From the NCBI RefSeq assembly GCF_000763375.1, contig NZ_JPSY01000001.1, forward strand, positions 1,178,001 to 1,242,000: a DNA stretch of 64,000 bases. The letters run 5' to 3'. The notes under the pieces were generated by a model, which worked only from the letters and a program-made list of their open reading frames with translations, made no database searches and was not told where the DNA came from. The translations under genes were made by a program, and so were the position numbers. Of the stretch, positions 8,523-47,730 are shown piece by piece. Each line of letters opens with the position of its first letter. Within the stretch, counting starts at the first letter, position 1. The DNA comes from Microbacterium profundi. GTDB taxonomy: Bacteria > Actinomycetota > Actinomycetes > Actinomycetales > Microbacteriaceae.

Positions 8523-9021
8523 GTTCTGAACGGAAGCGCAACACCTCGTAGGTTGTGGTTATTCACACTCACGACCTGAAGGGTTGCGCTTCCTTGACCG
8601 CACATTACCGTCATCTGACTCTTGAAGACCGGATCGAGATCGAGCGGCTGCTCGAGAAGGGCACCAGCCTGGCGGAGATCGCCCGCCAGATCGGCGTGCA
8701 CCGCTCCACCATCAGCCGGGAACGCCGCCGCGGATCGTGGCAGCCCGAACATGATCACGCGAACCTGCGCCCGTACCTGCGCAACCGACTCGATACCCGT
8801 GGCCCGCACGAGCGGCTATATCTGGGCGGGCAGGCGCAGCTGCACGCCGATACCCGCACGGCGCGTTCGCACCAGCCGTACCGGATGCTCCACGACCAGC
8901 TCGTGGATTGGGTGATCTCCGCACTTCGGCGCGGGTGGACCCCGGCGGAGATCTCCGGGCGGCTGCCGCTCGAGTTCCCCGACGATGCACGGATGCGCGT
9001 CGGAGTCGAGACGCTCCACGC
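8523..9021 (+). mobile_element. 5' half of a split IS30-family element
   Basis: The left end GTTCTGAACGGAAGCGCAAC (8523-8542) matches the inverted right end at 47711-47730 at 13 of 20 positions, including the outer GTTCT and the inner GCAAC. It carries the N-terminal half of an IS30 transposase and stops being IS30-like near 9003-9021, where IS481 sequence takes over. The missing half lies at 47067-47730 in the same orientation and phase. Confidence 0.75.
8594..9021 (+). pseudogene. IS30 transposase, N-terminal half
   Basis: From TTG 8594 the frame reads TAHYRHLTLEDRIEIERLLEKG and then GTSLAEIARQIGVHRSTISRE, the paired helix-turn-helix of IS30 transposases. It continues through RRGWTPAEISGRLPLEFPDD to RMRVGVETLHA (9021). 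In intact IS30 enzymes this point is MRVSHETIYxW, the position at which the fragment at 47.07 kb begins. None of the catalytic acidic residues is in this half, so it is inactive alone. Confidence 0.8.
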
Positions 9022-9645
9022 CGGTCCGGTACGAGATGGCCGCACCCGGGCAGCTGGTGCACGTGGACATCAAGAAGCTCGGCCGGATCCCCGATTGCGG
9101 CGGGCACCGGACGTTGGGCCGGCAGGCCGGGAAGCGGAACAACGACGAGCATGGTCGCGGGGGCCGCGGTTGTGCGTTCCTGCATCACGCGGTCGATGAT
9201 CACTCGAGGGTGGCGTACTCGGAGATCCTCGGCGATGAGCGCAAGGAGACCGTGGCGGCGTTCTGGGAACGCGGACGCGTACTTCGCCGGCATCGGAGTC
9301 ACCGTGACGGCGGTGATGTCCGATAACGGGTCTTGCTACCGCTCACTCGCGTTCGCCGCCGCACTCGGCGACGGCGTCAAGCACCGCCGCACCCGCGCCT
9401 ACCGGCCCCACAAAAACGGGAAGGTCGAGCGGTGCAACTGCACGCTCGCCGCGGAATGGGCCTACGCCGACACCTACTCCAGCGACGAAGCCCGAGCCGC
9501 GACCTACCAAGACTGGGTCCATCACTACAATCACCACCTAGCCCACACCGGGATCGGCGGCGCCACCCCCTCAGACCGCGTTCACAACCTCACGGGGCGA
9601 TACACCTGGGCGTCGGCCATGACGTTGTTGACGATGACGCCGTAG
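9005..9645 (+). pseudogene. IS481-family transposase fragment with an internal frameshift
   Basis: Starting around STPVRYEMAAPG, the sequence encodes the catalytic part of an IS481 transposase: QLVHVDIKKLGRI (first Asp), FLHHAVDDHSRVAYSEIL, then MSDNGSCYRS (second Asp) and HKNGKVERCN (Glu), ending YNHHLAHTGIG...RVHNLTGRYTWA. The first part (to WER, about 9270) is in one frame and the rest in another, showing loss of about two bases (WERGRVL versus ADAYFAGI). The N-terminal domain is missing and the preceding sequence belongs to IS30, so this is a chimera of two broken transposase genes. Confidence 0.85.
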
Positions 9646-9692
9646 CCGTGCGGCGTGGTCAACAATCCGACGCATGAAATCGGGCCGCCAGC

Positions 9693-10919
9693 TCACGACA
9701 AGCGTTCAATCACCATGGCCATCCCCATACCGCCCGCAACGCACATTGACTCGACGCCAAATTGCTTGTCGTGCCACTGAAGTGAGTTGATCAAGGTTGT
9801 AGTGATCCTCGCCCCAGTCATACCGAACGGGTGCCCGACGGCGATCGCGCCGCCATTGACGTTTAACGAATCAAGAGGAATACCGAGACGCTGGGCTGAG
9901 CCGAGAGCCTGCACCGCGAATGCCTCGTTGATCTCGAAAAGGTCGATGTCCTCGAGTTTCATCCCGGCATTGGCTAACGCCGCTGGGATCGCCGTAACCG
10001 GAGCCAGACCCATGACCTCTGGTGACATTGCGGTCACCGACGTGGACACTATCCGCGCCAGTGGTACCAGACCTAGGTCCTTTGCCTTCAGGTCGCTCAT
10101 CACGACGAGGGCCGCTGCGCCATCGTTGAGGGCGCACGCGTTTCCCGCCGTCACCGTACCGTCCGGGCGGAATACCGGCTGAAGTTGGCTGACCGCTTCA
10201 AGAGTGACACCAGGTCGAGGGCCGTCGTCATGGGAGACTATCGAGCCATCGGGGAGAGTCACGGGAGTAATTTCTCGAGCCCAGAATCCTGAGGCTATCT
10301 GCGCTTCGGCAAGATTCTGACTGCGCACCGCGAAAAGGTCCTGCTCTTCCCGCGACATCCCAATCACCTGCTGTACATTCTCGGCTGTCTGCCCCATGGC
10401 AATATAAATGTCGGGCACCTCAGAGTCCTCCCGGGGGTCCCGCCACATTAGCGCGCCAGCCTCGGACCGCTCCGAGGTGCGGGACTGGGCACCGCGAAAG
10501 AACGGGTTGCTCAGATCCTGGCCGGGGATGAAATCGGAGGTTCCTTTAGAGAAGCGGCTGACCGTTTCTACTCCTGCAGAAATGAATACGTCGCCCTCTC
10601 CGGAGCGGATCGCGTGGAAAGCCATTCGAGTCGTCTGCAGCGACGATGCGCAATACCGGGTCACTGTTACACCCGGGAGGTGGTCATAACCGAGCATCAC
10701 CGCCACGGTTCGCCCGAGGTTAGATCCTTGTTCACCTCCAGGAAGCCCGCATCCGAGCATTAGATCCTTGACGTCCTTCGGGTTCAGCTCCGGAACCTTG
10801 CCCAGGGCCGCGCCCACGATATGGGCGGCGAGGTCGTCGGGGCGCATGTCCTTAAGAGACCCCTTGCCGGCCCGCCCAATGGGGGACCGGGCTGTTGCAA
10901 CAATGACTGCTTCCGGCAT
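9693..10919 (-). CDS. Acetyl-CoA acyltransferase (thiolase)
   Basis: A 408-residue degradative thiolase, which cleaves 3-ketoacyl-CoA with CoA as the last beta-oxidation step. The acylated cysteine is in TRYCASSLQTT (near residue 90). INEAFAVQ, the GHPFGMTGARI histidine loop and the C-terminal CVAGGMGMA cysteine are all present, so it should be catalytically complete. I use ATG 10919 (MPEAVIVATARSPIGR), the conserved family start, instead of an upstream extension to 11081 that has no homology features. It is the last gene of the minus-strand block, separated from the LLM gene by 220 bases that may hold its own promoter. Confidence 0.92.
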   Translation of the reverse strand: MPEAVIVATARSPIGRAGKGSLKDMRPDDLAAHIVGAALGKVPELNPKDVKDLMLGCGLPGGEQGSNLGRTVAVMLGYDHLPGVTVTRYCASSLQTTRMAFHAIRSGEGDVFISAGVETVSRFSKGTSDFIPGQDLSNPFFRGAQSRTSERSEAGALMWRDPREDSEVPDIYIAMGQTAENVQQVIGMSREEQDLFAVRSQNLAEAQIASGFWAREITPVTLPDGSIVSHDDGPRPGVTLEAVSQLQPVFRPDGTVTAGNACALNDGAAALVVMSDLKAKDLGLVPLARIVSTSVTAMSPEVMGLAPVTAIPAALANAGMKLEDIDLFEINEAFAVQALGSAQRLGIPLDSLNVNGGAIAVGHPFGMTGARITTTLINSLQWHDKQFGVESMCVAGGMGMAMVIERLS

Positions 10920-11139
10920 AGCACACCTGAACTTCCTTGTTGTCGTGAACCTCATAGTCACGCCCTCAGAGTACGAAACGGTACCGAGGGGTACAACCAT
11001 TCCGCTGAGAAACCGGCCGATCGCGGTCTGCGGAATCGCAACTGATCGAGCGGATCGTGCAAGCGCCGCTCCACGGTGCAAAGGCTACTCGCTTTGAGCG
11101 ATACAGTTCGTTCTAAACGACGGCGTCACAAGTTGGCCA
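10920..11139 (-). promoter_or_regulatory. 220-bp gap upstream of the thiolase gene with a GTACC/GGTAC palindrome
   Basis: No gene is seen here. The perfect 14-bp palindromic unit GTACCGAGGGGTAC (5-bp arms) lies at 10981-10994, about 62 bases upstream of the thiolase start, followed by ACAAC. It shares GTAC-containing halves with the direct repeats at 21309-21355 and may be an operator. An internal promoter for the thiolase is plausible but no clear -10/-35 pair is evident. Confidence 0.35.
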
Positions 11140-12117
11140 TCACTCAGCAAGCGCGGTCAACGTCAATAACAACGACGATGCCGAATCCCTGCCGATCGTT
11201 ACCGGAGCGAGGACGGGTTCATCTATCCCGGCGGCCCGCAGTCCTCGAATCCTCGCTCTTATCTCGTCCGCGTCGCCTATCATAGCGACCGCTTGGATCA
11301 GCCTCTCGCTCACCGCCGCCGTTGCATCGCGACCGTAGCGACGCGCTTCACGCACAGCCTTGACGTCGTCCGCGTATCCATCGTCGGCCAGCGGATCGCC
11401 ATAGGCAGACAATTGCAAGTACGACGACAGCTGGCTCGCGACCTTCCGGTATGCATGATCACGATCCTTTGGTCTGTCGACGACGCACACCGGAATATAC
11501 GCCGCTGTGGTGAACATCCGTCCTCGCGCCACCTCGCCAGCGAGAGCACACAATCGCGCCGCTCTAGCCTCGGTCACCCAATTGAGGAGCATCCCATCCG
11601 CGATTCCCGCAGCGATCTTCACCATGCGCGGCCGGAGCGCGCCAACGAACAGCTGCGGAGGCACCTCAATATGCTGCCCTCGCAGTTTGAGTACGCACGA
11701 CTCGCCCCCGGCGCCATAGTGATGTAGCGTGGAAGTCTCGAGAGCTGCGCGGATCGCAAAGACCGCTTCGCCCACCTTATCAGGAGAAGCCGGTCCGCGC
11801 CACCCGAACTGGGGAGCCGCCGTCTCGCGGTGGCCCGCCCCCAGCCCCACGGCCACCCTGCCTGGGGCGCTTTCGGCGAGCGTTGCAACCGCCATCTCCA
11901 GAGCAGGCAAAGGCCGGGAGGGAAGAGGGATGACGCCAAGGCCAACACCGATTGTCTGCGTCTGAGTCGCCAGGATCGCGGCGGTCACAAAAGCATCTCG
12001 ACCGCTGATCTCGGGGAGCCATATACGGTCGTATCCAAGACCTTCAACGAACTTAGCCTGTTCGACAAGTTGCGGAAGGGGGGCTCGTGAGGAGAGCGCA
12101 GTCGCCAGTCGCGACAT
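11140..12117 (-). CDS. LLM-class flavin-dependent oxidoreductase (F420- or FMN-type)
   Basis: A 325-residue luciferase-like TIM-barrel protein: FVEGLGYDRIWLPE near residue 25, then TQTIGVGLGVIPLPSRPLP, and GRVAVGLGAGH near 90, all typical of actinobacterial F420-dependent reductases and dehydrogenases. Such enzymes transfer hydride from F420H2 or act as FMN monooxygenases. Ring hydroxylation, ketone oxygenation or enone reduction are all possible here. The start ATG 12117 lies 14 bases after the 47-residue desulforedoxin-like gene, so the two are probably co-transcribed and may act together. Confidence 0.82.
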   Translation of the reverse strand: MSRLATALSSRAPLPQLVEQAKFVEGLGYDRIWLPEISGRDAFVTAAILATQTQTIGVGLGVIPLPSRPLPALEMAVATLAESAPGRVAVGLGAGHRETAAPQFGWRGPASPDKVGEAVFAIRAALETSTLHHYGAGGESCVLKLRGQHIEVPPQLFVGALRPRMVKIAAGIADGMLLNWVTEARAARLCALAGEVARGRMFTTAAYIPVCVVDRPKDRDHAYRKVASQLSSYLQLSAYGDPLADDGYADDVKAVREARRYGRDATAAVSERLIQAVAMIGDADEIRARIRGLRAAGIDEPVLAPVTIGRDSASSLLLTLTALAE

Positions 12118-12131
12118 ATGCGATGCGCGGA

Positions 12132-12275
12132 TTAATCCGACGATGCAAGCTGTTTAGGCTCCTCCATTGTGAGCGGCTCCCCGTGGCACTTCGGTTCCGA
12201 CTGGCCTCCCGGTTTCGTAATGAGCACCTGCGTTCCGCACGTCTCACAGGTGTATCGCTTCCCGACTTTCAGCAT
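12132..12275 (-). CDS. Desulforedoxin-like miniprotein, 47 residues
   Basis: The frame reads MLKVGKRYTCETCGTQVLIT and continues KPGGQSEPKCHGEPLTM, ending ASSD. It matches desulforedoxin (about 36 residues) in GxxYxCExCG, the Gly turn and the third metal-site cysteine. The fourth ligand, the second Cys of the CC pair in desulforedoxin, is His here (KCHG). An AAAGGA site precedes the ATG at normal spacing. It probably binds iron or zinc in the cytosol as a small electron carrier or metal site, but the ligand change means redox activity cannot be assumed. It sits directly upstream of the LLM oxidoreductase gene. Confidence 0.75.
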   Translation of the reverse strand: MLKVGKRYTCETCGTQVLITKPGGQSEPKCHGEPLTMEEPKQLASSD

Positions 12276-12294
12276 GGCAATCCTTTCGTTCGTG

Positions 12295-12309
12295 TCACAC
12301 TATGTGTGA
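12295..12309. promoter_or_regulatory. Perfect palindrome TCACAC-TAT-GTGTGA between the two miniprotein genes
   Basis: Six-base arms with a three-base spacer lie 20 bases upstream of the 47-residue gene and just past the 37-residue gene's stop. Symmetry and position suit a transcription-factor site or a small hairpin tuning the two genes. No poly-T tract follows on the minus strand, so a terminator is unlikely. Confidence 0.4.
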
Positions 12310-12318
12310 TGCGGAGGC

Positions 12319-12432
12319 TTATTTTGCGACCATGTCGACGTCGTCACACTGCAGAGTTCCGTCGCCACCTTTGGTCACGACCAATTCCGCACCGCACACT
12401 TCGCACTTCATTCGCTTGCCTGCTTGATTCAT
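12319..12432 (-). CDS. Desulforedoxin-like miniprotein, 37 residues
   Basis: The frame reads MNQAGKRMKCEVCGAELVVT, then KGGDGTLQCDDVDMVAK. This aligns end to end with desulforedoxin (GDVYKCELCG ... GGGTLVCCGEDMVKQ), including the GGxGTLxC turn and the final DMV. The adjacent-cysteine pair is changed from CC to CD, leaving three Cys and an Asp. The preferred ATG is 12432; AAAGGA lies about 12 bases upstream. A paralogue follows 43 bases downstream. Desulforedoxins are classically from anaerobes, where the domain also caps desulfoferrodoxin; a tandem pair in an aerobic actinobacterial catabolic cluster is unusual. Confidence 0.75.
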   Translation of the reverse strand: MNQAGKRMKCEVCGAELVVTKGGDGTLQCDDVDMVAK

Positions 12433-12498
12433 GATCGATTCATTCCTTTCGGGATGTTCATCTCTGCGTTATCATTCTCGCACAGCCCACTTCTCAGG

Positions 12499-13932
12499 TC
12501 ACTTTTCTCGCCTCCACATCATGCAGCCTCCGACGAACGTCGCCATCACCTGGGTCTGTTCGAGCATCCGCCGCGGGTCGTCGCCGAGAACGACGGTGTC
12601 AGCGGTCCGACTCCAAGGTGAGTGCGATGCACGCCGATGGTTCCAACCCTCACGCGACGGTCCGTCCACCTCGTCCTTATCGGTGATGAGGCCGAGAGCG
12701 TCGTCCGGTGTGATGCGTTCTCGGACGCCCAACGGTTCGGTTCCACTGCCCCGCCGACGACGATAGACGGCCGCCGACATCGTGTCCAGCGGAGTGGCCA
12801 CTGTAACCGGACGGTCGCTCGCGCCGGCCATGGGGATTCCGTGCGAGATTACGCTAGCGACCGGATAGAGCCACTCCTGCTCGACGGGGCTGAGAAGTTC
12901 CCGGTACTTGGGCGCGCGCTCTGTCAAGAACGCCGGGTTCGTTGTCACGGCGGTCCCCGTTGCTTTGATTCGCTCGAGTTGACCCGGCAGGGGAAGGCCG
13001 AGGTGCTCAATACGATCGCGTCCCCACGCCGGCGGACCGGATGCTTCGATAGCGACCAGCGCCGCCTCCAACTCATCAGGCTCAGTTGCGTGAACTGCGA
13101 CTGGCCATCCGAATCCACGTGCGTGTCGCACGCACTCGGCGATGCCGTCGGACGGTGCAGCGACCTTCGCGCCGAGCACACGCACCCCTCCCCGGCTCGG
13201 AGTGCGCTCCCTGTTCCGTGCCACCGCGGAAACTTGATCGACGGCGAGAAGCGCGTTGACCCGTTGCCGAATGACGCCACGATTCACCCAGGTTTCGTAC
13301 TGCGCGATGTCGTCCCAGGTATTAGTGGCGCTAGCCTCTGTGACGCTCGTGAGTCCCATGGCTGCAAGCTCACGGGACAGAGCGTTCAGACTTGATTCGA
13401 GTGATTGCTCGCGCTGTCGCGGCATCCTCAAGAGTGAGGGGTCGTCAGCTCGCACAAGCTCACCGGTAGGAGCCGTTTCATCGCCGGCGCCGGCCAGGAT
13501 ACGCCTGGCCGTCGAGTTCAGAAGAACCACCTTCCCTGTCCGATGATGAAGAGCGCACGGGTGGCCATTTGTGATCGCATCAATCTCAGCGACGGTCGGT
13601 GCCCGCCTCTCCCTGAGAGCGCTCTCGTCCCATCCCCAACCGCGAATCCATCTCCCGTTGAATTCGGCGACGCTCGTCTGCAATATGGCGAGCAACGCCG
13701 GTATGGAACCCGCAACACTCAAATCGACAGAGAGCCTCGCGGCTGCCGCCGCACGCAGATGCACATGAGAGTCATGAAACCCGGGCAGCATTACCCACTT
13801 GTCGGTATTTCGCCCGGTCATCAACGGACGAATCTGCTCGATCCGTGCGCCCGAGACTCGCACTTCGATGCGAGCTCGCCGAACCCAGCGCCCATTCCGA
13901 TGGTGCAACGGCGTCGCCTCAAACCGCCACAT
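12499..13932 (-). CDS. Amidohydrolase family 3 (YtcJ-like metal-dependent hydrolase)
   Basis: A 477-residue enzyme of the amidohydrolase superfamily. It shows LPGFHDSHVHL (HxH metal pair, near residue 50), VAVHATEPDELE, DRIEHLG (third His) and AGASDRPV (catalytic Asp), with the order and length of the YtcJ/Amidohydro_3 group. Members hydrolyse amides, formamides, lactams or imides. I start at ATG 13932 (MWRFEATPL), which overlaps the acyl-CoA ligase stop by 14 bases; the longer frame up to 14199 is antisense-like sequence within the ligase gene. Its presence suggests the island's substrate or an intermediate carries a hydrolysable amide or cyclic ester. Confidence 0.8.
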   Translation of the reverse strand: MWRFEATPLHHRNGRWVRRARIEVRVSGARIEQIRPLMTGRNTDKWVMLPGFHDSHVHLRAAAAARLSVDLSVAGSIPALLAILQTSVAEFNGRWIRGWGWDESALRERRAPTVAEIDAITNGHPCALHHRTGKVVLLNSTARRILAGAGDETAPTGELVRADDPSLLRMPRQREQSLESSLNALSRELAAMGLTSVTEASATNTWDDIAQYETWVNRGVIRQRVNALLAVDQVSAVARNRERTPSRGGVRVLGAKVAAPSDGIAECVRHARGFGWPVAVHATEPDELEAALVAIEASGPPAWGRDRIEHLGLPLPGQLERIKATGTAVTTNPAFLTERAPKYRELLSPVEQEWLYPVASVISHGIPMAGASDRPVTVATPLDTMSAAVYRRRRGSGTEPLGVRERITPDDALGLITDKDEVDGPSREGWNHRRASHSPWSRTADTVVLGDDPRRMLEQTQVMATFVGGCMMWRREK

Positions 13933-15466
13933 CCGCGACCTGCGGCGTCCCGAATTGCTTGCTGAGCCCACGACGGAGAACCTTTCCAGTCGAGGTACGG
14001 GGGAAATCGTCAACAATGTGGATTCGGTCGGGCCTTTTCGCCCCGGAGAGGGATGCCTTGCATTCTTCCAGGAGGGCGTCGACGGTCCCGATCGCTCCCG
14101 GCACAAGGCGTACCGCGGCTTCCACGCGCTCGCCCCAGTGGTCATCGGCGACAGGGAAAGCCACCGCCTCCTCGACTTCTTCGTTTCGCTCGAGGACATC
14201 TTCGATTTCGCTGGGCGAGATGTTCTCGCCCCCTCGAATAATCAGGTCACTCGCTCGGCCCGTCAGAAATAGGTAGCCGCCCTCGTCGACGTGTCCAATG
14301 TCTCCAGTGTGAACCCATCGTTCAGAGTCCAGCGTGACGCGGGTGCCTCCAGCCCTGCCCCAGTAGCCCGCCATCGCTCGACCAGTTCGGATGAACACCT
14401 CCCCCGTGACGTTGGCGGGGGCGATGTTCCCCTCGTCGTCGGTCACGCGGATCTCAACGTCCGGGAGCGGCTTGCCCACGGAACTGAGGCGGCGCCGCTT
14501 GAGCTCGATCTCGTCCGGCGTGCCTTCAAGACGGTGATCGTCCGGGCCGAGGAGCGAAACGGTGGAGTTCGTTTCCGTCTGCCCGTAAGCGCACGAGAAC
14601 GACACGCTCGCCGGGAACCGCTCGAGCATGGCATGCCGAACAGCAGGCGGCATCGGAGCGGCACCGTACGTCATCATCTGAAGACTCGTTAAGTCAAACC
14701 GATCGAAATCGGGGTGTCGCAGGAGGAGCGACACCATGGACGGCACGAGGAAGGCGTGAGTGATCTTCCGGCTTTGGACGGTTTCGAGCCATCTTCCCGC
14801 CTCGAAATCGAGCAGATAGGTTTCGCGTCCCGAGAACAGGGAGACGGCAATCGTTGACAGCCCCGCGACGTGGTAGAGCGGCGCGGCCACAGCAACCCTG
14901 CCATGGAATTCTCCGTCTGCCGCCTCCCCCTGGCTCATGACGTACTGCGTGAATCCCCCATGCGTGAGCAGGACGCCCTTGGGAAGCGATGTCGTGCCGC
15001 TGGTGTACAGCATGACCGCGACATCAGAATCGTCGACGTCTGCAGGCTCGTCCTTCGGCTCGAGTCCAGCGGATCGGGAGTGCGCCTCTTCGAGAGTCAG
15101 CACCCTGTCGCGAGTCATCCCCGCTGCCAAAATGCCATCAATGTATCTTTCCTCCGCGATGACCAGCGACGCTCCGGAATCGCTCACCAAGTGGGCCAGC
15201 TCGCTTCCGCGGGCACGGTAATTCATCGGTACGACTGTCGCGCCAGCCATGAGAATGCCGAAGAACGAACTGAGCGCCCCGGCCCTGTTGGTCGAGAGGA
15301 GCCCCACCCGGTCGCCGCGAGAAACACCCAGCGATTCCATCAACGCCGCCTGTCGCGCGGCCTCGTCCCTCAGCACTTGGTACGTTTTCTCGTGTCCATC
15401 TCCGAATACCGCCACATCATCGGGCACGATCATGGCGGGGATGTCGACAACGACTGCCAGGTTCAT
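13919..15466 (-). CDS. Acyl-CoA synthetase (class I adenylate-forming enzyme)
   Basis: A 515-residue ANL-family ligase. The ATP loop is YTSGTTSLPKG (near 155), the aromatic-Glu motif YGQTETNS (near 290), TGDIGHVD (near 375), and the catalytic lysine is in RTSTGKVLRR near the C-terminus. It activates a carboxylic acid to its CoA thioester through an acyl-adenylate; the acid is unknown. It is followed by the amidohydrolase with overlapping frames, and 31 bases downstream of the first CaiB-type CoA-transferase gene, so three activating genes stand together. Confidence 0.9.
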   Translation of the reverse strand: MNLAVVVDIPAMIVPDDVAVFGDGHEKTYQVLRDEAARQAALMESLGVSRGDRVGLLSTNRAGALSSFFGILMAGATVVPMNYRARGSELAHLVSDSGASLVIAEERYIDGILAAGMTRDRVLTLEEAHSRSAGLEPKDEPADVDDSDVAVMLYTSGTTSLPKGVLLTHGGFTQYVMSQGEAADGEFHGRVAVAAPLYHVAGLSTIAVSLFSGRETYLLDFEAGRWLETVQSRKITHAFLVPSMVSLLLRHPDFDRFDLTSLQMMTYGAAPMPPAVRHAMLERFPASVSFSCAYGQTETNSTVSLLGPDDHRLEGTPDEIELKRRRLSSVGKPLPDVEIRVTDDEGNIAPANVTGEVFIRTGRAMAGYWGRAGGTRVTLDSERWVHTGDIGHVDEGGYLFLTGRASDLIIRGGENISPSEIEDVLERNEEVEEAVAFPVADDHWGERVEAAVRLVPGAIGTVDALLEECKASLSGAKRPDRIHIVDDFPRTSTGKVLRRGLSKQFGTPQVADVAV

Positions 15467-15497
15467 AAATCCTCCATCTTGCTCGCTACGAAATCCA

Positions 15498-16802: not shown

Positions 16803-16839
16803 CATACTCCTTTGTACAATCTCGGTCGCTAGCTGCGAC

Positions 16840-17997: not shown

Positions 17998-18105
17998 TGC
18001 TTTTCTCCTTCTCGTACCGGATGTGACTTTCCCACTCAGCTAATGTCTAATTAGTCGAGCCCGACGCCGAGTCCCGCGAAATCAGCGCCGCGGAATCGCT
18101 CCTCG

Positions 18106-38871: not shown

Positions 38872-38937
38872 TCAACCTCAAACGCGGCGGCCGATGGCGA
38901 CTGGTTCGGGGAATCAAGTCATGAGAAGGAGATAACC

Positions 38938-40905
38938 ATGACGGCATATCGAGATGTGTGGCGGAGAAGCCTGGAGGATCCCGAGGGGTTTTGGCTCGAG
39001 GCAGCGGGAGCGATCAATTGGACCACCGCTCCGCGTCACGCCCTGGTGCCGCGCGGAGACGAGTGGTCCTGGTTTCCCGATGGCACGCTGAACATGAGCT
39101 TCAACTGCCTCGACCGTCATGTGGAGTCTGGTCATGGAGACCACATCGCCCTGAGGTACCACTCAGCTATGAATGGAACCAAGGAGGACTACACCTACGC
39201 AGAACTTCGCGAGCGCGTTGCCCATTTCGCTGGCGCGCTGCGGTCGTCTGGCGTGACGACAGGAGACCGTGTTCTGCTCTACTTGCCGATGACACCCGAG
39301 GCCGTCATAGCGATGCTCGCATGCGCCCGCCTGGGCGCAATTCACTCCGTCGTGTTCGGTGGGTTTGCAGCAACAGAGCTTGCCGTCAGGATTACAGATG
39401 CCCGACCCAGTGTCGTCGTCACAGCATCAGGCGGTATGGAGCCGGGACGCGTAGTCGAATACCTTCCGCTAGTACGGAAGGCGCTAGAAGCGGCGGAAGG
39501 CATCGTCTCAACAGTCGTCGTCTGCGACCGCGAAGGCATTCCCGGCTCGGCGGACGAGATGGCAGGGACTGTGCCAGGCGTCGCCTGGTTGGACTGGGAC
39601 AGACTCGTCGCGACGGCCGAACCAGCCCCACCAGTTCCGGTTGCCTCCTCCGCCCCCCTTTACATTCTGTACACCTCGGGAACGACCGGTAGCCCGAAGG
39701 GTGTCGTCCGCGATACGGGCGGATATGCCGTCGCGTTATCGTGGGCGATGCGTAACGTTTACGACATCGGTGCCGGCGACACGATGTTCACCGCATCGGA
39801 CGTGGGTTGGGTCGTGGGGCACTCATTCATCGTCTACGGGCCGCTTCTGGCTGGCGCCACGACCGTGCTCTTCGAGGGCAAACCGGTTGGAACCCCAGAC
39901 GCCGGTGAGTTCTGGCGTGTGGTGCACGACTACCGCGTCAAGGCAATGTTCGCAGCACCGACAGCGTTGCGCGCCATACGGCGCGTCGACCCGGAACTCA
40001 GGCAGCTGTCGAAAGGAGCTGTCGCATCGCTGGAGACCTTGTTCCTCGCAGGCGAGCGGTTGGACCCCGAAACATGGCGGTGGGCAAACGACGGCCTACG
40101 CGTCCGCATCGTGGATCACTGGTGGCAGACAGAGACTGGGTGGCCGATCTGCGCGATCCCCGTCGGAGTGGAGGCGCTCCAACCGAAACCAGGATCAACC
40201 GCGGTGCCGATGCCGGGCTATGACATTCGAATCCTCGGCACCGGGGGAGACGACCTAACCGGCACCGGTCCGCGCGGCTCCAGCCCCGAGGGCAACATTG
40301 TGCTACGAACCCCACTACCGCCCGGCGCTCTAACTGGGGTGTGGGGAAGCGCGGAGAGGTACCGCCACTCTTACCTGACTGCCTTCCCCGGCTACTACTC
40401 GACGGGAGACGCCGGATATATCGATGAAGACGGATACGTCTTCGTTATGGGCCGAACGGACGACGTCATCAACGTCGCCGGACACCGCCTCTCAACCGGC
40501 TCTCTCGAAGAAGTCCTCACGATGCATCCAGCAGTGGCCGAGTGCGCGGTCATCGGGATTTATGACGAAATTAAGGGGCAGAGAGCCGCCGGCTTCGTAA
40601 CTCTCAAAGCCCACGTCGCGATCTCGCAAGAGCGACTTCAGCGCGAACTGGTATCTCTAGTTCGAGAGCACGTCGGGCCGATCGCCGCGTTCCGCGACGT
40701 GACCATCCTCGACCGGCTCCCAAAAACCCGCACTGGCAAGATTTTGCGCAAGACAATGCGCCAGATTGCCGATGGCGAGACATACAAAGTTCCGGCGACG
40801 ATCGAGGACCCTACTGTCCTGGACGGGCTGATAGTCGCTTTGAAGGCGTCGCCGCGGCGCGCATCCGAACCGAGTGCCATGCTTAGTGGGCCGAGTGCTG
40901 GCTGA
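38938..40905 (+). CDS. Acetyl-/propionyl-CoA synthetase-like acyl-CoA ligase
   Basis: A 655-residue ANL ligase with the acetyl-CoA-synthetase N-terminus (WRRSLEDPEGFWLEAAGAIN), the ATP loop YTSGTTGSPKGVV, DVGWVVGHSF, TETGWPICAI, YYSTGDAGYIDEDGYVF and the catalytic Lys in TRTGKILRKTM. Length and motifs match propionate/acetate-CoA ligases. It would activate a short acid, perhaps a C2-C4 fragment made by the pathway. Start ATG 38938 follows GAAGGAGATAACC. It is the last gene of the plus-strand operon that starts at 34904. Confidence 0.9.
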   Translation: MTAYRDVWRRSLEDPEGFWLEAAGAINWTTAPRHALVPRGDEWSWFPDGTLNMSFNCLDRHVESGHGDHIALRYHSAMNGTKEDYTYAELRERVAHFAGALRSSGVTTGDRVLLYLPMTPEAVIAMLACARLGAIHSVVFGGFAATELAVRITDARPSVVVTASGGMEPGRVVEYLPLVRKALEAAEGIVSTVVVCDREGIPGSADEMAGTVPGVAWLDWDRLVATAEPAPPVPVASSAPLYILYTSGTTGSPKGVVRDTGGYAVALSWAMRNVYDIGAGDTMFTASDVGWVVGHSFIVYGPLLAGATTVLFEGKPVGTPDAGEFWRVVHDYRVKAMFAAPTALRAIRRVDPELRQLSKGAVASLETLFLAGERLDPETWRWANDGLRVRIVDHWWQTETGWPICAIPVGVEALQPKPGSTAVPMPGYDIRILGTGGDDLTGTGPRGSSPEGNIVLRTPLPPGALTGVWGSAERYRHSYLTAFPGYYSTGDAGYIDEDGYVFVMGRTDDVINVAGHRLSTGSLEEVLTMHPAVAECAVIGIYDEIKGQRAAGFVTLKAHVAISQERLQRELVSLVREHVGPIAAFRDVTILDRLPKTRTGKILRKTMRQIADGETYKVPATIEDPTVLDGLIVALKASPRRASEPSAMLSGPSAG

Positions 40906-41094
40906 GCGACGAAGACTGAACATTCATGTAGCGCTGAGTCGCGTGCCGGGCAGGAGCAGAGGTGCTCGCCGCAGTGCTGGCTGCCCGAGCCAGGTGCATC
41001 CGGCGTGTCTAAATTCCTCGAACCTGCCGACGTCCCCTCGTTTGTGGGCGCCGTCGATGCCGGAATTTGTCAAGGCGAGTGAGGCCGGTGGGTG

Positions 41095-42108
41095 TTAGGC
41101 GGCGAGTTGGATCTCGTCGGTTGGTGGCTGGTTGATCCACGCGGCCGGGTCTCGGTCGAGGATCTTCGGTCGCGTCTGTCGCGTCGTGAACCGTTCGGGG
41201 TGGGCGCGGCGGGCGGCCTCGAGTGTGGCGTCTCGGTCGCGGTCGATGGCGTCGGCGTGCCCGTAGTGCACGTCGGCGGGCGTGTGCATGCCGATGCCGG
41301 TGTGCCGGTGGTGGTGGTTGTAGGCGTGCACGAATTCGTCCAGGAACTGCCGTGCGTGGGCGAGGGAGACGAACCGGTCGGGGAAGACGGGCAGGTACTT
41401 CATCGTCTTGAACAGCGCTTCGGAGTAGGGGTTGTCATTGGACACGTGCGGTCGGGAGCGGGACGCGGTCACGCCGAGATCGGCGAGCAGGGTGCGGACG
41501 GTCTTCGACGTCATCGAGGGGCCGCCGTCGGAGTGCACGACCTCGGGGGTGCCGTGGATCCCGAACGCGTCGGTCATCATCTCCTTGGCGAGTAGGCCGT
41601 CCTCGCAGGCGTGCACGATGGCGCCGACGATGTAGCGGGAGAAGATGTCGATCATCACGTACGCGTCGTAGTACGTGCCTTTGACAGGGCCGGCGAGTTT
41701 CGTGATGTCCCAGGTATAGACCTGCCCGACGGCGGTCGCGATCAGCTCCGGCACCTTCCGCGGCGGATGGGTCGCGAGCCGGCGCCGCTCCCGTACCTGC
41801 GTGTGCTCGCGCAGCACCCGATACATGGTCGAGACCGAGCCCACGTATTCGCCGCGCTCGAGCAGGATGGGATAGATCTGCAACGGCGGCTTGTCGACGA
41901 ACTCGTCACTGTTGAGCGTGGACAGCACCAGCGACCGCTCGACGCTCGAGAGCTTGTTCGCTGGGGCAGGACGAGCCGACGGCGGCTCGGGGTCCGGTCG
42001 GCGTGCGCGGGAGGCGGCGCGGGTCGCGGTCGCACGCGCCACGCCGGTCAGGGCTGCCGCCTGCCGGGTCGGCACGTCCGCGGCGGCCAGTTCGACGTAG
42101 GTGTTCAT
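41095..42108 (-). CDS. IS3-family OrfB, DDE transposase
   Basis: A 337-residue transposase from ATG 42108 (MNTYVELAAADVPTRQAA). The DDE residues are visible in VYTWDITKLAG, VVHSDGGPSM and DNPYSEALFKTMKY. The longer frame reaching 42339 is inside orfA and reflects a possible -1 frameshift fusion rather than a start. It is clearly related to, but diverged from, the 5827 enzyme. Confidence 0.88.
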   Translation of the reverse strand: MNTYVELAAADVPTRQAAALTGVARATATRAASRARRPDPEPPSARPAPANKLSSVERSLVLSTLNSDEFVDKPPLQIYPILLERGEYVGSVSTMYRVLREHTQVRERRRLATHPPRKVPELIATAVGQVYTWDITKLAGPVKGTYYDAYVMIDIFSRYIVGAIVHACEDGLLAKEMMTDAFGIHGTPEVVHSDGGPSMTSKTVRTLLADLGVTASRSRPHVSNDNPYSEALFKTMKYLPVFPDRFVSLAHARQFLDEFVHAYNHHHRHTGIGMHTPADVHYGHADAIDRDRDATLEAARRAHPERFTTRQTRPKILDRDPAAWINQPPTDEIQLAA

Positions 42109-42545
42109 GAGCGCTTCCCGCGCCGCGGGTCGGTGTCCGCGCTCTTGGAGATCTGCCCCAAGAGCGCGTGCGCTTTTCCCATGATCTCCAACGCCGTCCG
42201 CGTCATCGACAACTCCACCTCGGCCTTCCGCAGTTGCGCCTTCAACCGGGCGTTCTCGGCCTGCGCGGCGCTGGGACGACCGACCGCTTCGCCGGGGTTC
42301 TTGCCCTCCAGCAGACCCGCGTCGCGCTGCTTGCGCCACTCCGAGATCAGCGACGAGTACAGGCCATGTCGGCGCAGGTATCCCGCGCCCTCACCCGTCT
42401 CGCACGCGACCTCGTACTCGGACAGGTACTGCAACTTCTGGCCCGGCGAGAACGAACGCCGACGCGTCGGCCCGTCCGGGATCGAGGGTGCGCTCACGAC
42501 TCCATCATCGGCCGCGACGACCGCGACCGGGGAACTCAAACTCAT
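42105..42545 (-). CDS. IS3-family OrfA, DNA-binding protein
   Basis: A 146-residue protein. A helix-turn-helix in the middle (QLQYLSEYEVACETGEGAGY, RRHGLYSSLISEWR) is followed by a Leu-rich coiled coil (AQAENARLKAQLRKAEVE). It ends four bases into orfB (ATGA). OrfA binds the element's ends and may be fused to OrfB by frameshifting. Confidence 0.85.
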   Translation of the reverse strand: MSLSSPVAVVAADDGVVSAPSIPDGPTRRRSFSPGQKLQYLSEYEVACETGEGAGYLRRHGLYSSLISEWRKQRDAGLLEGKNPGEAVGRPSAAQAENARLKAQLRKAEVELSMTRTALEIMGKAHALLGQISKSADTDPRRGKRS

Positions 42546-42715
42546 CAGATTGGTGATCCTTCAACTCGCCCCACGAGGCGGACTTGCTATAAACCGGTGG
42601 ACTCACTCAACCCTGACACGTAGGGTGCCGGGGATGTAGCAGAACCGGTCGAAGCAGTAGTGGGAGCGGAACAGCGCCCGCCGGTCGTTCTCTCTGCAAC
42701 CTCGCCGTTTACCGA

Positions 42716-43707
42716 TCAGGACACGTTTGACGGCGGGAGGGTCGCGATTAGTTCGTCTACCCATGTTCCGAGTCGCTCGGTGTGTTCGTCTCGGAGGGGC
42801 AAGATGCCCGCGTCGATCAGGAGCGACCTGAGGTGATGTCTGGCCTGCCCCGGTGGGCAAGCATCGAGGCTGGCATGGGTGATCGAGGTCTCCGCGCCGA
42901 TGGTCTGCAGGAGGGCTTTCGGGATGGGCTTGAGCAGCCACCGCATGGTCGAGTCGGGCCGGCCCCGCTGTGCAAGCGCGGCGGGAGTTCTGTGAGCGGG
43001 ACGGGGATGGTGCCTGTTGCCGAGGAGAGTAGCTGTCGGACGCTCAGGGTGACGGAGCAGCGTATGCACGTCCGCTCGAAGTGTTGATCGCCGGCCGCAC
43101 CGCAGGTAGCACACACGTAGTCTCGTGTTGCTCCGGCGCATGGCCCGCAGATCCGCTCCCCCGTCTCGGAAAACCCGATGAGGGCTTTGACCTGGTCGCA
43201 GGTGGGGCATGTGTTCGGGGTGCGGAGCACGCGCCGGTAGCAGCCGGTGCAGACAGGGCCGATCGGCCACGTCGTCGTGTGAACGGGCCGCGCGAGATGG
43301 CAAACAACGCACTCAGCATCGGTGGTCTGATAGCAGGACTTGCAGAGATCGGTACTGCCGTTTTGGCTGCGTGCGGCGATTGGGCGTTCTTGTCCGCAGT
43401 GCCCGCACGCCCGGACGGGCGCCTTGTGGCAGCGTTTGCAGTAGTCGTCGCCGTCGACGACCGCGGTGACGTGGTCGACGCGACCGCAGCCTGCGCAGTC
43501 TCGCTTGGGTCGGGCGCAGTGACCGCACAGAGCGGCGCCGTCGCTTGTTCGGGCGCTGGGTGTTCGTGATCGGTGGCAGTTGGAGCATTCCTCGCGCCTG
43601 CTGGCGTTGTAGCACGGGCGGCATAGCCCACCTCCCTCAGGGAGCCTTTTCGAGCGCGGTGCGGTCGTGCCGCATTCGGAGCATGGATGCTCCGGGAGTG
43701 CTTTCAC
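42716..43707 (-). pseudogene. Multi-zinc-ribbon recombinase-associated protein, frameshifted
   Basis: The N-terminal 215 residues carry about ten CxxC-type knuckles (HPCSECG, GLCRPCY, CSNCHR, CAGCGR, YCKRCH, CGHCGQ, CVVCH, CTGCYR, CPTCDQ, CATCGA), spaced about 20 residues apart. At about 42985 the frame is lost. A shift by one base restores LPAALAQRGRPDSTMRWLLK and continues to RDEHTERLGTWVDELIATLP. In related actinobacterial proteins this helical domain continues further, so the gene is also truncated at 42716. Its start overlaps the XRE gene's stop by four bases. The family travels with integrases on genomic islands; function unknown. Confidence 0.7.
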
Positions 43708-44033
43708 GGCGTAGTTCCGGGGCGGTTGATCGTCGTGCGCCGCGCCGTCACCCGACTCTTCGGCGACAGGGTCTCCCCCGCCACCTTCTGGTTCGAGGCC
43801 TCCACGATGCGAGGCTCGATGAGGTCATTGGGCGTGCATCCCAGGATGTCGCACAGTGCGATGAGTATCGACATGCTCAGCCGTTGAGGATGTCCGGTGA
43901 CGAGTCGGTAGGTCTGCTCCCGGGAGAGCGAGACACCGCGCTCAGCGAGGCGTGGCTGCAGATCCGTCGTAGCAAACATGCCCTGCTCGGCCATCTTGGC
44001 GCGCAGGTGCCAGACGTAGTCCATTTCCTTCAT
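43704..44033 (-). CDS. XRE-family (Cro/C1-type) helix-turn-helix protein
   Basis: A 109-residue protein: FATTDLQPRLAERGVSLSRE, QTYRLVTG, then ISILIALCDILGCTPNDLIE (printed here as MSILIALCDILGCTPNDLIE), an HTH_26/XRE fold. It probably represses its own small operon or the recombinase genes. It starts in a four-base overlap with the truncated integrase (ATGA) and ends in a four-base overlap with the zinc-ribbon gene, so the three were one cassette. Confidence 0.85.
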   Translation of the reverse strand: MKEMDYVWHLRAKMAEQGMFATTDLQPRLAERGVSLSREQTYRLVTGHPQRLSMSILIALCDILGCTPNDLIEPRIVEASNQKVAGETLSPKSRVTARRTTINRPGTTP

Positions 44034-44148
44034 CGCGGTTCCTCCTGAAGGTCGAGGCCGTACCGCGTGTGGATGGCCTGGGTGAGTAGACGATTCCGAT
44101 ACTCATTGGAAACGCCCACATAGATCGCGGTTGTCGATGAGAGGGCTT
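44030..44148 (-). pseudogene. C-terminal tail of a tyrosine recombinase, cut by IS256
   Basis: Reading down from the IS256 left end, the frame gives LSSTTAIYVGVSNEYRNRLL, then TQAIHTRYGLDLQEEPR and a stop at 44030. STTxIYxxVS is the end of XerC/D-like integrases, with the catalytic Tyr in AIYVGVS. About 40 residues remain; the rest is lost beyond the IS256 insertion. It overlaps the XRE start by four bases. Confidence 0.7.
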
Positions 44149-45593
44149 GTCAAGTTTTCTGTGTAAGCGGTTCGGAATTGGTGGTCAGAGGTAGGGGTTG
44201 ATTCGCTCGGGGTAAGCCAGGGCGAGTTGCTCAAGGGCTTGTTTCCAGTTCGTCGTGACGTTGCCCTCGATGAGTCGGCCGCTGGCTTTGCGCTTGCTCG
44301 CGGGCAGGCCGCGTTCCTTCTCTCGTTCGCGGGCTCGTTTGTCCTCGATGTCGCAGATCGCGAGCCAGAGCAGCTTGACCGCAGCAGCGTCGTTGGGGAA
44401 ATGGCCACGGTTCTTGGTGATCTTCCGCAGCTGGTAGTTCAGCGATTCAATCGCGTTCGTCGTGTAGATCACCCGCCGCAGCTCGGGCGGGAACGCGAGG
44501 AACGGGGTGAACTTGTCCCAGGCGTCCTGGAACGATTTCACCGCCGACGGGTATCGCTTCCCGAGCTCGGACGCGCTGAACTCCTCGAGCGCCTCGAGGG
44601 CGGTGTCCTCGTTCGCAGCCTGGTAGATCGGTTTCAGCGCGGCGGCGACGGCCTTGCGGTCCTTGTAGTTCACGAACCGCATCGCAGCCCGGATGAGATG
44701 CACGACGCAGGTCTGCACGGTCGCTTCCGGCCACGTCGCCGCGATCGCCTCGGGGAACCCGGTCAGCCCGTCGCAGCAGACGATCAGCACGTCGCGGACG
44801 CCGCGGTTGGCGAGTTCGGCGCACACCGACGCCCAGAACTTCGCACCCTCGGTGGCCTGCACCCAGATCCCCAGGACGTGCTTGATCCCGTCCATGTCGA
44901 CCCCGACAGCGATATGAGCGGCCTTGTTGCGGACATGCCCGCCATCGCGGATCTTCACGATGATCGCGTCCAGATAGATCACCGGATACAGCGACTCGAG
45001 CGGCCTCGTCTGCCAGGCGAGGACCTCGTCGGCGACCTGGTCGGTGATCTTCGAGATCGTCTCATGGCTGAGCTCGGTGCCGATCGTGTTCGCGAGATGG
45101 TGCTGAATGTCGCGGATCGTCATCCCGCCCGCGTAAAGCGAGATGATCATCCCATCCAGCCCGTCCAGCCGCCGCTGCCCCTTCGGGACCAGCATCGGCG
45201 TGAACGACCCGTTCCGGTCGCGCGGGACCGCAAGCTCGATATCACCGATCTCGGTCGACACCGTCTTCGGCGTCGACCCATTGCGGGAGTTCGGATACAG
45301 CGACGCCTCGGCATCGCCGCGGTCGTAGCCGACATGCTCCGTCAGCTCCGCATCCAGCCCCCGCTCCAGCGCCGCCTTCAACATCCCGCCCAGCATCCCG
45401 TGCTCGCCCGTCAAGGGCTCGCCCGCGTCGATCTTCGCGAAGATCTCATCCATCGCTCCCGACGCCTTCAACTGATCAGCAAGCTCCTTCTGCCTCCGAC
45501 GACGCTCCTCGCGCTCCGGGCTGATCGCATCCATAGTCACAGTGTTTCTCCTTCAGGGGGGTGAACCTCACCCCCTTACACAGACCATTTGAC
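44149..45593 (-). mobile_element. IS256-family insertion sequence
   Basis: Inverted ends GTCAAGTTTTCTGTGTAAGC (from 44149) and, reversed at 45593, GTCAAATGGTCTGTGTAAGG, match at 16 of 20 positions. The element encodes one transposase. No 8-9-bp target duplication is visible, so one side may have been rearranged; on the left it cuts an integrase gene. Confidence 0.82.
44185..45540 (-). CDS. IS256-family transposase
   Basis: A 451-residue mutator-type transposase. The DDE residues lie in VIYLDAIIVKIRDGG (first Asp), VLIVCCDGLTGFPEA (second Asp) and YTTNAIESLNYQLRK (Glu), with WP EATVQTCVVHLIR between. The protein is full length and should be active. Numerous long antisense frames across it are shadows. 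Confidence 0.93.
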   Translation of the reverse strand: MTMDAISPEREERRRRQKELADQLKASGAMDEIFAKIDAGEPLTGEHGMLGGMLKAALERGLDAELTEHVGYDRGDAEASLYPNSRNGSTPKTVSTEIGDIELAVPRDRNGSFTPMLVPKGQRRLDGLDGMIISLYAGGMTIRDIQHHLANTIGTELSHETISKITDQVADEVLAWQTRPLESLYPVIYLDAIIVKIRDGGHVRNKAAHIAVGVDMDGIKHVLGIWVQATEGAKFWASVCAELANRGVRDVLIVCCDGLTGFPEAIAATWPEATVQTCVVHLIRAAMRFVNYKDRKAVAAALKPIYQAANEDTALEALEEFSASELGKRYPSAVKSFQDAWDKFTPFLAFPPELRRVIYTTNAIESLNYQLRKITKNRGHFPNDAAAVKLLWLAICDIEDKRAREREKERGLPASKRKASGRLIEGNVTTNWKQALEQLALAYPERINPYL

Positions 45594-45695
45594 GTTGATA
45601 CTGGGAACAGCTGGCGCGGGGCATGACCCACCATTTGACTGGCGGCTCCCTGGGGTCTGCCTTTAGCGTGATCTGTCTGCCGCGCGCCAGTTGAA

Positions 45696-45780
45696 GTGTC
45701 GGTCGGCCGGGCATGACCTCATAGGAGCGTGACCTCGGACCGGTCTCATCAACGTCTTGTCTGCCCTGCCCGGCCGACAC
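45696..45780 (+). ncRNA. Candidate bridge-RNA hairpin of the IS110 element
   Basis: GTGTCGGTCGGCCGGGCA (45696-45713) can pair with TGCCCGGCCGACAC (45767-45780), giving a 14-bp stem with a four-base bulge and a loop of about 53 bases. IS110 elements encode a bridge RNA in this position. The loop contains ATAGGAGC, also found at the element's right end, as expected if a loop pairs with donor DNA. Transcription is not shown by sequence. Confidence 0.5.
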
Positions 45781-45816
45781 TTCCCATTGTGAAACACATT
45801 CGAAGGGAAGTACACG

Positions 45817-47043
45817 ATGCATGCTGGATCGCACGTCGTCGCGGGGGTGGACACGCACAAGGACACCCACTTCGCGGCGGTGATCACCGTCACAGGTCAG
45901 CAAGTGGGGGCTGCCGAGTTCCCCGCCACCGAGTCAGGCTACCGGGCGTTGACCGAGTTCATCACCTGCCACGGGCCGCTGCTGCGCGCGGGGGTCGAGG
46001 GCACCAACGCCTACGGCGCTGGCCTCTCGCGTCACCTTCGCGAGGTCGGCGTGCCGGTCGTGGAGGTGCTGCGTCCGGCTCGGCAGCTGCGGCGGATGCG
46101 CGGCAAGTCTGATCAGATCGACGCCTACGCGGCCGCGCAGATTGCGCTGGCCGACGTGGACACCGTAACCGCGAAGACCAGCGCCGGGACCGTCGAAGCG
46201 ATCCGGGTGACTTTCGCCGCCCGTCGCAGCGCGATTAAGGCCCACTCTGAGGTGATCACTCAGATCAAGTCGTTACTGGTGACCGCTCCGGAGCCTGTCC
46301 GCGCCGAATACCGACACCTGGCCACCGGGCGGCTGATCAGCATGCTGGCGAACTCACGCCCCCGCGTCGGTGACGACGAAGTCGCCGCACGCACCCGCGT
46401 CGCGCTCAAACGGCTCGCGACCCGGTGCCGGCAACTGGACGCCGAGATCGACAGTCACGACACCGATCTCCACGACCTCGTCTCGCAGGTCAACCCTGGC
46501 ATCCTCCAGGTCCACGGCATCGCTGCCACCACGGCTGCGCAACTACTGATCACCGCCGGAGACAACCCCGACCGGATCGGCTCGGAAGCCGCCTTCGCGA
46601 TGCTCTGCGGCGCCGCGCCGATCCCGGCATCATCGGGCAAGACTAGTCGGCACCGCCTCAATCGCGGCGGCGACCGGCACGCCAACTCCGCGCTGCACCA
46701 GATCGCGAAAGTCCGGCTGGGCACCGATCCTGACACGCGCGCCTACGCGGCCAGGCTCACCGCAGCAGGCAAGAGTAAGAAGGACATCCTGCGCTGTCTC
46801 AAACGCGCCATCGCCCGACAGGTGTTCCACCTCATCACCAACCCACCGGTGATCGAACACAGCGACGATCTGCGACCGGCCCGTCAGGCACTCGGGCTCA
46901 CACTCGCGAACGTTGCCGACGCCCTCGGCTGCAGCATCATGAAGATCTCTCAACTCGAACGCGGCACCATCCGCGACGTCCGATTCCTCCGGCACTATCG
47001 TGCCTGGCTCACGGCCACACCCGAGCTCCAACTCGCGGCTTGA
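45817..47043 (+). CDS. IS110-family recombinase with C-terminal helix-turn-helix
   Basis: A 408-residue recombinase. The RuvC-like DEDD residues are in AGVDTHKDTH (Asp), GVEGTNAYG (Glu) and KSDQIDAYA (Asp). The transposase_20 part shows HGIAATTAAQ, CGAAPIPASSGKTSRHRLNR and the Ser used for strand joining. Residues after about 350 (ARQALGLTLANVADALGCSI, MKISQLERG) form an additional XRE-like helix-turn-helix not typical of IS110. It should be active. Confidence 0.9.
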   Translation: MHAGSHVVAGVDTHKDTHFAAVITVTGQQVGAAEFPATESGYRALTEFITCHGPLLRAGVEGTNAYGAGLSRHLREVGVPVVEVLRPARQLRRMRGKSDQIDAYAAAQIALADVDTVTAKTSAGTVEAIRVTFAARRSAIKAHSEVITQIKSLLVTAPEPVRAEYRHLATGRLISMLANSRPRVGDDEVAARTRVALKRLATRCRQLDAEIDSHDTDLHDLVSQVNPGILQVHGIAATTAAQLLITAGDNPDRIGSEAAFAMLCGAAPIPASSGKTSRHRLNRGGDRHANSALHQIAKVRLGTDPDTRAYAARLTAAGKSKKDILRCLKRAIARQVFHLITNPPVIEHSDDLRPARQALGLTLANVADALGCSIMKISQLERGTIRDVRFLRHYRAWLTATPELQLAA

Positions 47044-47066
47044 CAAACAATAGGAGCATCAGGCTC

Positions 47067-47730
47067 GACGCTCTACGCATGGATCTACGCCCCCGAGCAG
47101 AAGCACCGACAGCTCTGGCAGTACCTGCCTCGCGGGCAGCGCAAGCGCCGCCGCCGACAGGGCCGGCGGGTGCATTCCGAGCGGATCAAGTGGCGCACCT
47201 CGATCCACGAGCGCCCCGCCCTGGTCGAGGACCGTATCGAGTTCGGGCACTGGGAATCCGACAGCGTCCTCGGTCTGCGCGGCACCGGTGGGCTGCACAC
47301 CACCGTGGAACGCCGCGCCCGGTACCTGCAGGCCGTGAAGATCCCCGCCATCGCCGCCGCGCCCACCATCGACGCACAGCTGAGCGTGTACTCGCCGCTA
47401 CCCGCCCACGCCGTCCGCTCCGTGACGGCGGACAATGGGTCCGAGTTCGCGTTCCACTACCAACTCGCCGACGCCCTCGCCATCCCGACCTACTTCGCCG
47501 ACCCGTACTCGGCATGGCAGCGGGGCACGAACGAGCACTTCAACGGCCGCATCCGCAAATACCTCCCGAAAGGCACCAGCTTCGAAGACCTCACCCAAAC
47601 AGACCTCGACGAGATCGTCACCGAGATCAACAACCGACCCCGCCGAGTCCTCGGCTGGGCAACCCCCGCCGAGATCTTCAACGAACTATGCTCAAGCCAA
47701 GCCACACCACGTTGCACCTCGAACTAGAAC
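47067..47730 (+). mobile_element. 3' half of the split IS30-family element
   Basis: IS30 sequence begins at GACGCTCTACGC (47067), just after the IS110 right end, and runs to the right end AGAAC at 47730, whose inverted form GTTCTAGTTCGAGGTGCAAC matches the left end at 8523. Length plus the 5' half is about 1.15 kb, a normal IS30 size. Confidence 0.75.
47068..47727 (+). pseudogene. IS30 transposase, C-terminal half
   Basis: The frame reads TLYAWIYAPEQKHRQLWQYL, then RVHSERIKWRTSIHERPALV, with the DDE residues in FGHWESDSVLG, VTADNGSEFAF and WQRGTNEHFNGRIRKYLPKG. It ends FNELCSSQ ATPRCTSN at 47727. The N-terminal helix-turn-helix half is absent here and lies at 8594. Joined, the two give about 360 residues, normal for IS30. 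A start at 47170 exists but would lack DNA binding. Confidence 0.85.

Follow-up and report, generated by a model that had tools for sequence, protein, structure and literature searches.

The window analyzed here, a 64,000-nucleotide stretch of the Microbacterium profundi contig NZ_JPSY01000001.1, contains a catabolic gene island that lies between the two halves of an insertion sequence (IS) of the IS30 family. A sequence-only reading of this DNA had placed the catabolic block, of 38 kb, inside one split IS30 copy whose halves lie on the same strand, share one protein frame and together have the length of one normal element, and our comparisons bear out each of these points. The features at the two boundaries are as follows.

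8515..8517, plus strand: left IS30 target repeat, CCT (3-bp repeat)
8518..9016, plus strand: IS30 5' part, with the left end and the N-terminal transposase (1 mismatch in 499 bases to intact copy L009)
9010..9017, plus strand: left 8-mer GACGCTCC, a putative IS256-type target repeat (7 of 8 bases like the right 8-mer)
9017..9650, plus strand: IS481 remnant without its 5' part and frame-shifted, the left end of the island (from an rve_3 match and homologues; right limit approximate)
44143..45593, minus strand: IS256-family element up to the IS110 element, transposase at 44185-45540 (from domains, terminal repeats and relatives)
45594..47060, plus strand: IS110 element in the right terminal repeat of the IS256 element, transposase at 45817-47043 (from domains and end comparison; ends uncertain by 1-2 bases)
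45608..45783, plus strand: bridge RNA predicted from folding, with a target loop (stem 45608-45623/45678-45693) and a donor loop (stem 45693-45711/45765-45783)
47061..47066, minus strand: right tip of the IS256 element, AGGCTC on the plus strand (from comparison with the tips of relatives)
47067..47074, plus strand: right 8-mer GACGCTCT, the first bases of the IS30 3' part (from alignment to IS30 copies)
47067..47735, plus strand: IS30 3' part, with the catalytic domain and the right end (1 mismatch in 669 bases to L009)
47736..47738, plus strand: right IS30 target repeat, CCT (3-bp repeat)

The source genome was searched with each IS30 half, and the copies found were read out and aligned. Both queries returned the identical set of three intact IS30 copies, each of 1,161 bp. 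Compared with one of these, L009, the left half differs at one of 499 bases and the right half at one of 669, which rules out an origin of the halves from two different IS30 subfamilies. Both halves are on the plus strand and extend a few bases further than first noted (8518-9016 and 47067-47735). The sum of 8518-9016 and 47074-47735 is exactly 1,161 bp, so every IS30 base has been kept, with 7 bp (GACGCTC) doubled between the halves. In L009 the transposase is undivided and reads through the corresponding place (..VGVETLYAWIYAPEQ..) within a single frame of 371 amino acids. The outer ends are inverted repeats at 17 of the first 25 positions (by eye), and CCT lies immediately outside both of them, at 8515-8517 and 47736-47738, as expected of a full-length element with inverted ends and a short target repeat. 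Repeats of 3 bp also surround the intact copies, perfect in two of the three (AGG and ATC) and reading GCC/GGC in the third. The possession by the halves of one copy's full sequence, the CCT on both sides and the adjoining flank genes in relatives (below) together mean that the island was inserted into a single resident IS30 copy.

The same motif had been noted at both breakpoints, and GACGCTC[C/T]ACGC is indeed present at 9010-9021 and 47067-47078; the repeat is imperfect, however. The right 12-mer is IS30 sequence, while uninterrupted IS30 identity on the left stops at 9016, and base 9017 is C where all three intact copies have T, so this C is not an IS30 base. With one mismatch or fewer allowed, the intact 12-mer matched the 64-kb window only at the two breakpoints, on the plus strand, with no match on the minus strand; taken alone, the 7-mer GACGCTC is found 25 times, both strands counted.

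The genes that border the split IS30 are the following.

6960..8477, minus strand: SDR-family gene, the chromosomal left neighbour (Pfam adh_short; adjoins the protease gene in relatives)
47776..48828, plus strand: M4 metallopeptidase gene, the chromosomal right neighbour (from a domain match and relatives)

The M4 protease gene was found in 130 of 149 genomes of the genus, including that of the source. We compared the neighbourhoods of 30 protease loci, 29 of them from relatives, with a margin of 1.5 kb. Of the 29 loci from relatives, 13 have the SDR gene within this margin, 12 of them at a distance of less than 400 bp from the protease gene; at the other 16 it was not seen within the margin. 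In one relative locus, L116 (G488), the SDR and protease products have 98 and 91% amino-acid identity to those of the window, the two matches are separated by 107 bp, and the window flanks, when joined, align over one continuous intergenic stretch. Relatives thus hold empty sites. The adjoining of the two genes and the continuous alignment of the flanks point to the SDR-protease neighbourhood as the ancestral arrangement, into which IS30 and the island were inserted, and agree with the earlier assignment of chromosomal genes outside and acquired genes inside. A further transposase gene (rve domain) at 5827-6852 ends about 110 bp from the SDR gene, suggesting more than one hit at this place in the chromosome.

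The inner edges had been described as IS481 on the left and IS110 on the right. The left assignment stands. On the right, the DNA that abuts IS30 is the tip of an IS256-family element, and the IS110 element is nested within that element: the order is IS256 to ACCATTTGAC (ending at 45593), IS110, AGGCTC (47061-47066) and IS30. The IS256-family element encodes a Mutator-type transposase (Transposase_mut, E 2.2e-119; transpos_IS256, E 6.4e-123) and has terminal inverted repeats, 44149-44170 and 45572-45593, that are 82% complementary, with tips like those of its relatives. Its ends were set by comparison with these relatives, six bases before GTCA on the left and six after TGAC on the right; with ends so defined, four of the eight relatives checked have exact 8-bp target repeats and the other four have none. 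The tips of relatives read ACCCTC, ACCCCC or ACGCTC, and that of the window AGGCTC. Based on these comparisons, we assign the right edge of the island to the IS256 tip at 47066, with IS110 inside the IS256 terminal repeat.

The IS256-family element sits in a tyrosine-recombinase gene, the C-terminal end of which lies on its left. Homology to a recombinase paralogue in the same genome (L240) ends at 44142, at the left tip of IS256, in agreement with the relatives, which place that tip at 44143. The remainder of the recombinase gene is absent from the right side of IS256, which identifies the right tip as the breakpoint between donor and IS30 DNA. An 8-bp repeat directly around IS256 itself was not found (4 of 8 matches to the right 8-mer for 44133-44140 and, by eye, 0 of 8 for 44135-44142). 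The 8-mers that flank the whole island, GACGCTCT on the right and GACGCTCC on the left, agree at seven of eight positions. The 12-bp repeat is consequently better read, for the most part, as a target repeat of the IS256 type (7 of 8 bases), with a short similarity to IS481 in addition. Scoring 40 first-look candidates per search, of 170, 113 and 111, respectively, we found no other near copies of the IS256, IS110 and IS481 elements in the source genome, which suggests that all three probably arrived with the island.

The IS481 and IS110 sequences had been regarded as possible independent insertions. This probably holds for IS110, discussed below; IS481 is better seen as the island's own broken left end. 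The nearest protein relative of the remnant, P0002, has 90% identity across 54% of the query stretch. Before the residues PVRYE, P0002 reads RRPT and the window RRST, with the first residues falling within the bases common to IS30. RRST is absent from the 25 commonest readings tallied over 112 aligned IS481 proteins, and GACGCTC occurs at the corresponding place in one of the 24 IS481 DNA relatives (L064) among the matches listed. Part of GACGCTCCACG may be native IS481 sequence, or the likeness may be due to chance. At 9016-9018 there is no IS256-like terminal repeat: 5-11 of 30 positions match, a level reached by 9-91% of island positions, and a test for a pseudo-terminal repeat at this edge gave nothing unusual.

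The IS110 element has both the DEDD transposase and the Transposase_20 domains, and its right end is 6 bp from IS30, that is, 6 bp from the IS256 tip. Bridge RNAs have two loops, which carry the guides for target and donor, and in IS110-group elements they mostly lie in the left end (PMC11208160). The left non-coding end of the window element (45594-45816) has a strong predicted fold (z -4.25) with two stem-loops of this kind. The first, or target, loop contains ACCATTTGAC, which is also the ten-base sequence on the left of the point of insertion. When the flank was shuffled 5,000 times, no shuffle shared so long a run with the loop; of 5,000 random 13-mers from the window, 10 did so, about as many as the loop region itself, being within the window, accounts for. 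The second, or donor, loop contains CATAGGAGC, like the right end of IS110, and the complement of the left end (GACGTTGAT; by eye). For the core dinucleotide, the guide loops suggest AC and the right side reads AG. In two IS110 relatives from a single genome (L043 and L044) the flank and loop share an 8-base run, which 102 and 64 of 5,000 shuffles reach; a third (L045) has a run of only 5 bases, at chance level (1,800 of 5,000 shuffles), or 8 of 9 with a mismatch by eye. L043 and L044 have a different presumed target (CCACCGAC). Most likely, judging from the predicted guide, IS110 is a guided passenger that inserted separately into the IS256 end. A plasmid search for this IS110 gave no match, and a pattern search for this IS110 in IS256 ends across 398 genomes of the family found one, the source's own.

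We propose that a resident IS30 lay between the SDR and protease genes and that a segment of foreign DNA, about 36.6 kb long, with catabolic genes and, at its right end, an IS256-family element, would have entered it by means of the right tip of IS256. The left end of the segment would be a point inside IS481 and not an IS256 end. Such a one-ended insertion, with one true terminal repeat and one arbitrary end, would leave the 8-bp target outside, here as GACGCTCC and GACGCTCT. Guided by its bridge RNA, IS110 would have entered the IS256 terminal repeat 6 bp from the tip, before or after arrival. The agreement of seven of eight bases around the island, the lack of such a repeat around IS256, the coincidence of the tip with the donor/IS30 breakpoint and the absence of other near copies of the elements among the candidates scored all fit a one-ended insertion. 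From these we infer a single transposition event and the choice of left end, by a route that is plausible.

Known systems offer partial parallels. An IS1-plasmid product in E. coli, obtained in 2 of 28 cases and called one-ended, has a 9-bp target duplication and no second IS end, and the same paper cites IS911 and Tn21 for one-ended insertion (PMC3031569). That product and the island share an IS end on one side, non-IS sequence on the opposite side and, outside these, a target duplication, which is putative for the island; unlike the IS1 product, the present case involves an IS256-family element and about 36.6 kb, is deduced from sequence, and has one mismatch in the repeat (PMC3031569). Within the IS256 family, ISCth4 transposes by copy-out/paste-in; its target repeats are 8 bp long and the recipient end is bound loosely (PMC7780238). 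The window element resembles ISCth4 in its transposase, its terminal repeats and the 8-bp target repeats of its relatives, and differs in that the left boundary of the island lacks the left terminal repeat of IS256. The one-ended events noted in PMC3189936 concern IS801, not IS256.

In mobilization of the ISEcp1 type, which involves a different IS family, adjoining genes are moved by one true IS end and a distant alternative end; unlike in that process, no end-like sequence was found at the left boundary of the island. For the nested element, IS110/IS1111 elements are reportedly aimed at the ends of other elements, IS4321/IS5075 at the repeats of Tn21 and IS1383 at those of IS1384. The arrangement here is similar in that a guide-bearing element is nested in another element's terminal repeat and differs in that the target is an IS256-family end, a combination for which no case was found among the literature matches listed (titles and starts of abstracts).

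Several observations weigh against a one-ended insertion. The 8-mers differ at 9017, which requires a mutation or a repeat of 7 bp. Beyond this position on the left, the four following bases (ACGC) agree with IS30 as well, and this match, with the possibly native IS481 stretch, would point to short-homology joining. The left edge, as noted, has nothing like an IS256 terminal repeat, and the literature matches listed include no case of an IS256-family element inserting by one end. Because of the T/C mismatch, the additional ACGC match and the possibly native stretch, we give this history, in which about 36.6 kb entered by a single end of IS256 and IS110 lies within that end, about an even chance of being correct.

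The strongest alternative, which we consider rather unlikely, has two steps. A unit with IS256 at each edge (a composite transposon or cointegrate), bounded outside by GACGCTCT, would have inserted normally, after which the left IS256 and the start of IS481 would have been lost by a deletion joining GACGCTC in the left target repeat to a similar stretch of IS481. Deletions between short repeats are common, the similar stretch may be native to IS481, and the two steps together account for the IS256 tip, the 8-mers and the T/C difference. The deletion would nevertheless have to end within one base of the outer IS256 tip despite abundant other 7-base matches: 117 positions of the IS481 remnant, which here represents the lost part, have a 7-mer in common with IS256. 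In addition, the composite form calls for the same IS at both edges, and the left edge has IS481, with no second IS256 copy found in the genome among the candidates scored.

Improbable, in our estimation, is plain illegitimate recombination, in which a circle whose IS256/IS110 end already abutted IS481 crossed with IS30 at GACGCTCyACGC without transposase. The match of 11 of 12 bases at both junctions is what such a crossing would use, and crossing-over between plasmid and chromosome at 1-3 bp gave 2 of 28 products in PMC3031569. A crossover exactly at the IS256 tip would need chance, however, and since IS256 lies in the recombinase gene, the donor DNA on its right should be that gene and not IS481. 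A molecule in which the IS256 tip already abutted IS481, reading GACGCTCCACGCC, would contradict a one-ended insertion.

Two further explanations have very little probability. IS110 might have moved the whole segment by its bridge RNA with a false left end, as its position at the right edge, 6 bp from IS30, would allow; we rejected it as the carrier because its target loop carries the IS256 end sequence (a 10-base run) and, with both IS110 ends present, the arrangement resembles a normal insertion into IS256. Misassembly at a multi-copy element deserves mention since the genome has four nearly identical IS30 copies and the locus is judged from assembled sequence, but CCT lies on both outer sides, the flank genes adjoin in relatives and both inner junctions are in single-copy sequence. 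Least probable of all is the precise excision of the island at the doubled motif that had been suggested earlier, which has in its favour the direct repeat GACGCTCyACGC at both breakpoints and which we rejected, also in the form of att-site excision, because the repeat is imperfect and is explained by a target repeat, no tRNA gene is present in the window, no intact integrase lies beside the repeat, no working recombinase or site-specific excision system was found, and the only recombinase remnant seen at an edge is cut by IS256.

If a one-ended insertion did occur, searches for islands keyed to paired IS copies or att sites would miss such cases. More generally, and more tentatively, one IS256-family end, with no need of a second, may be able to bring tens of kilobases of adjoining DNA to a new site, leaving an ordinary 8-bp target repeat there, in which case a single IS256 beside a gene cluster would suffice for mobility; a bridge-RNA-guided IS110 entering that end would then break it and may lock the island in place. 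The locus offers a layered, base-by-base history of the entry of a catabolic block into a chromosome, from IS30 through an IS256-ended segment to the IS110 nested in IS256. The IS110, whose predicted guide carries the sequence of the IS256 end in which it lies, would also be a compact natural example of RNA-guided insertion into the end of another element.

The remainder of the island comprises the following features.

9693..40905, strand not assigned: catabolic gene block with CoA ligases, thiolases, acyl-CoA dehydrogenases, CaiB transferases, hydratases, ETF, and ChsH2- and MadB/C-like proteins (from domain matches)
41060..42625, minus strand: IS3-type element (99.2% identical copy elsewhere in the genome)
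42817..44142, minus strand: zinc-ribbon protein, XRE regulator and C-terminal end of a tyrosine recombinase cut by IS256 (from own-genome paralogue L240; domain names by eye)

The GC content is 0.599-0.637 in 2-kb bins of 10001-40000 and 0.640-0.685 in bins of 1-8000 and 48001-64000. By their content, the genes resemble a cluster for CoA-thioester catabolism; no substrates are claimed because many of the proteins fall under curated equivalog cut-offs. The distribution of the cluster across the genus is sporadic, a 5.5-kb piece of it matching 2 of 365 other genus genomes (E <= 1e-50). A plasmid search with the left part of the island gave five records, each of them partial. The nearest relatives found are in a Microbacterium metagenome-assembled genome, WOFB01, with 70-83% nucleotide identity in the larger matches. 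This genome, with which one of the two matching genus genomes (G400) shares contig numbers (C39, C107), has two diverged copies of the catabolic cluster (L145 and L146). It was ruled out as the donor, its thiolase gene running on into another gene and not into IS481.

Within the catabolic block, an open reading frame at 21629-22300 has a weak match, below the curated cut-off, to a Mu-transposase C-terminal domain and is possibly an old insertion remnant. The paralogue group of recombinase, XRE and zinc-ribbon genes elsewhere in the source genome (L240 781-3312; C1, about 1380.4-1382.9 kb) is itself split by an IS3 copy that has 99.2% identity to the IS3 of the island.

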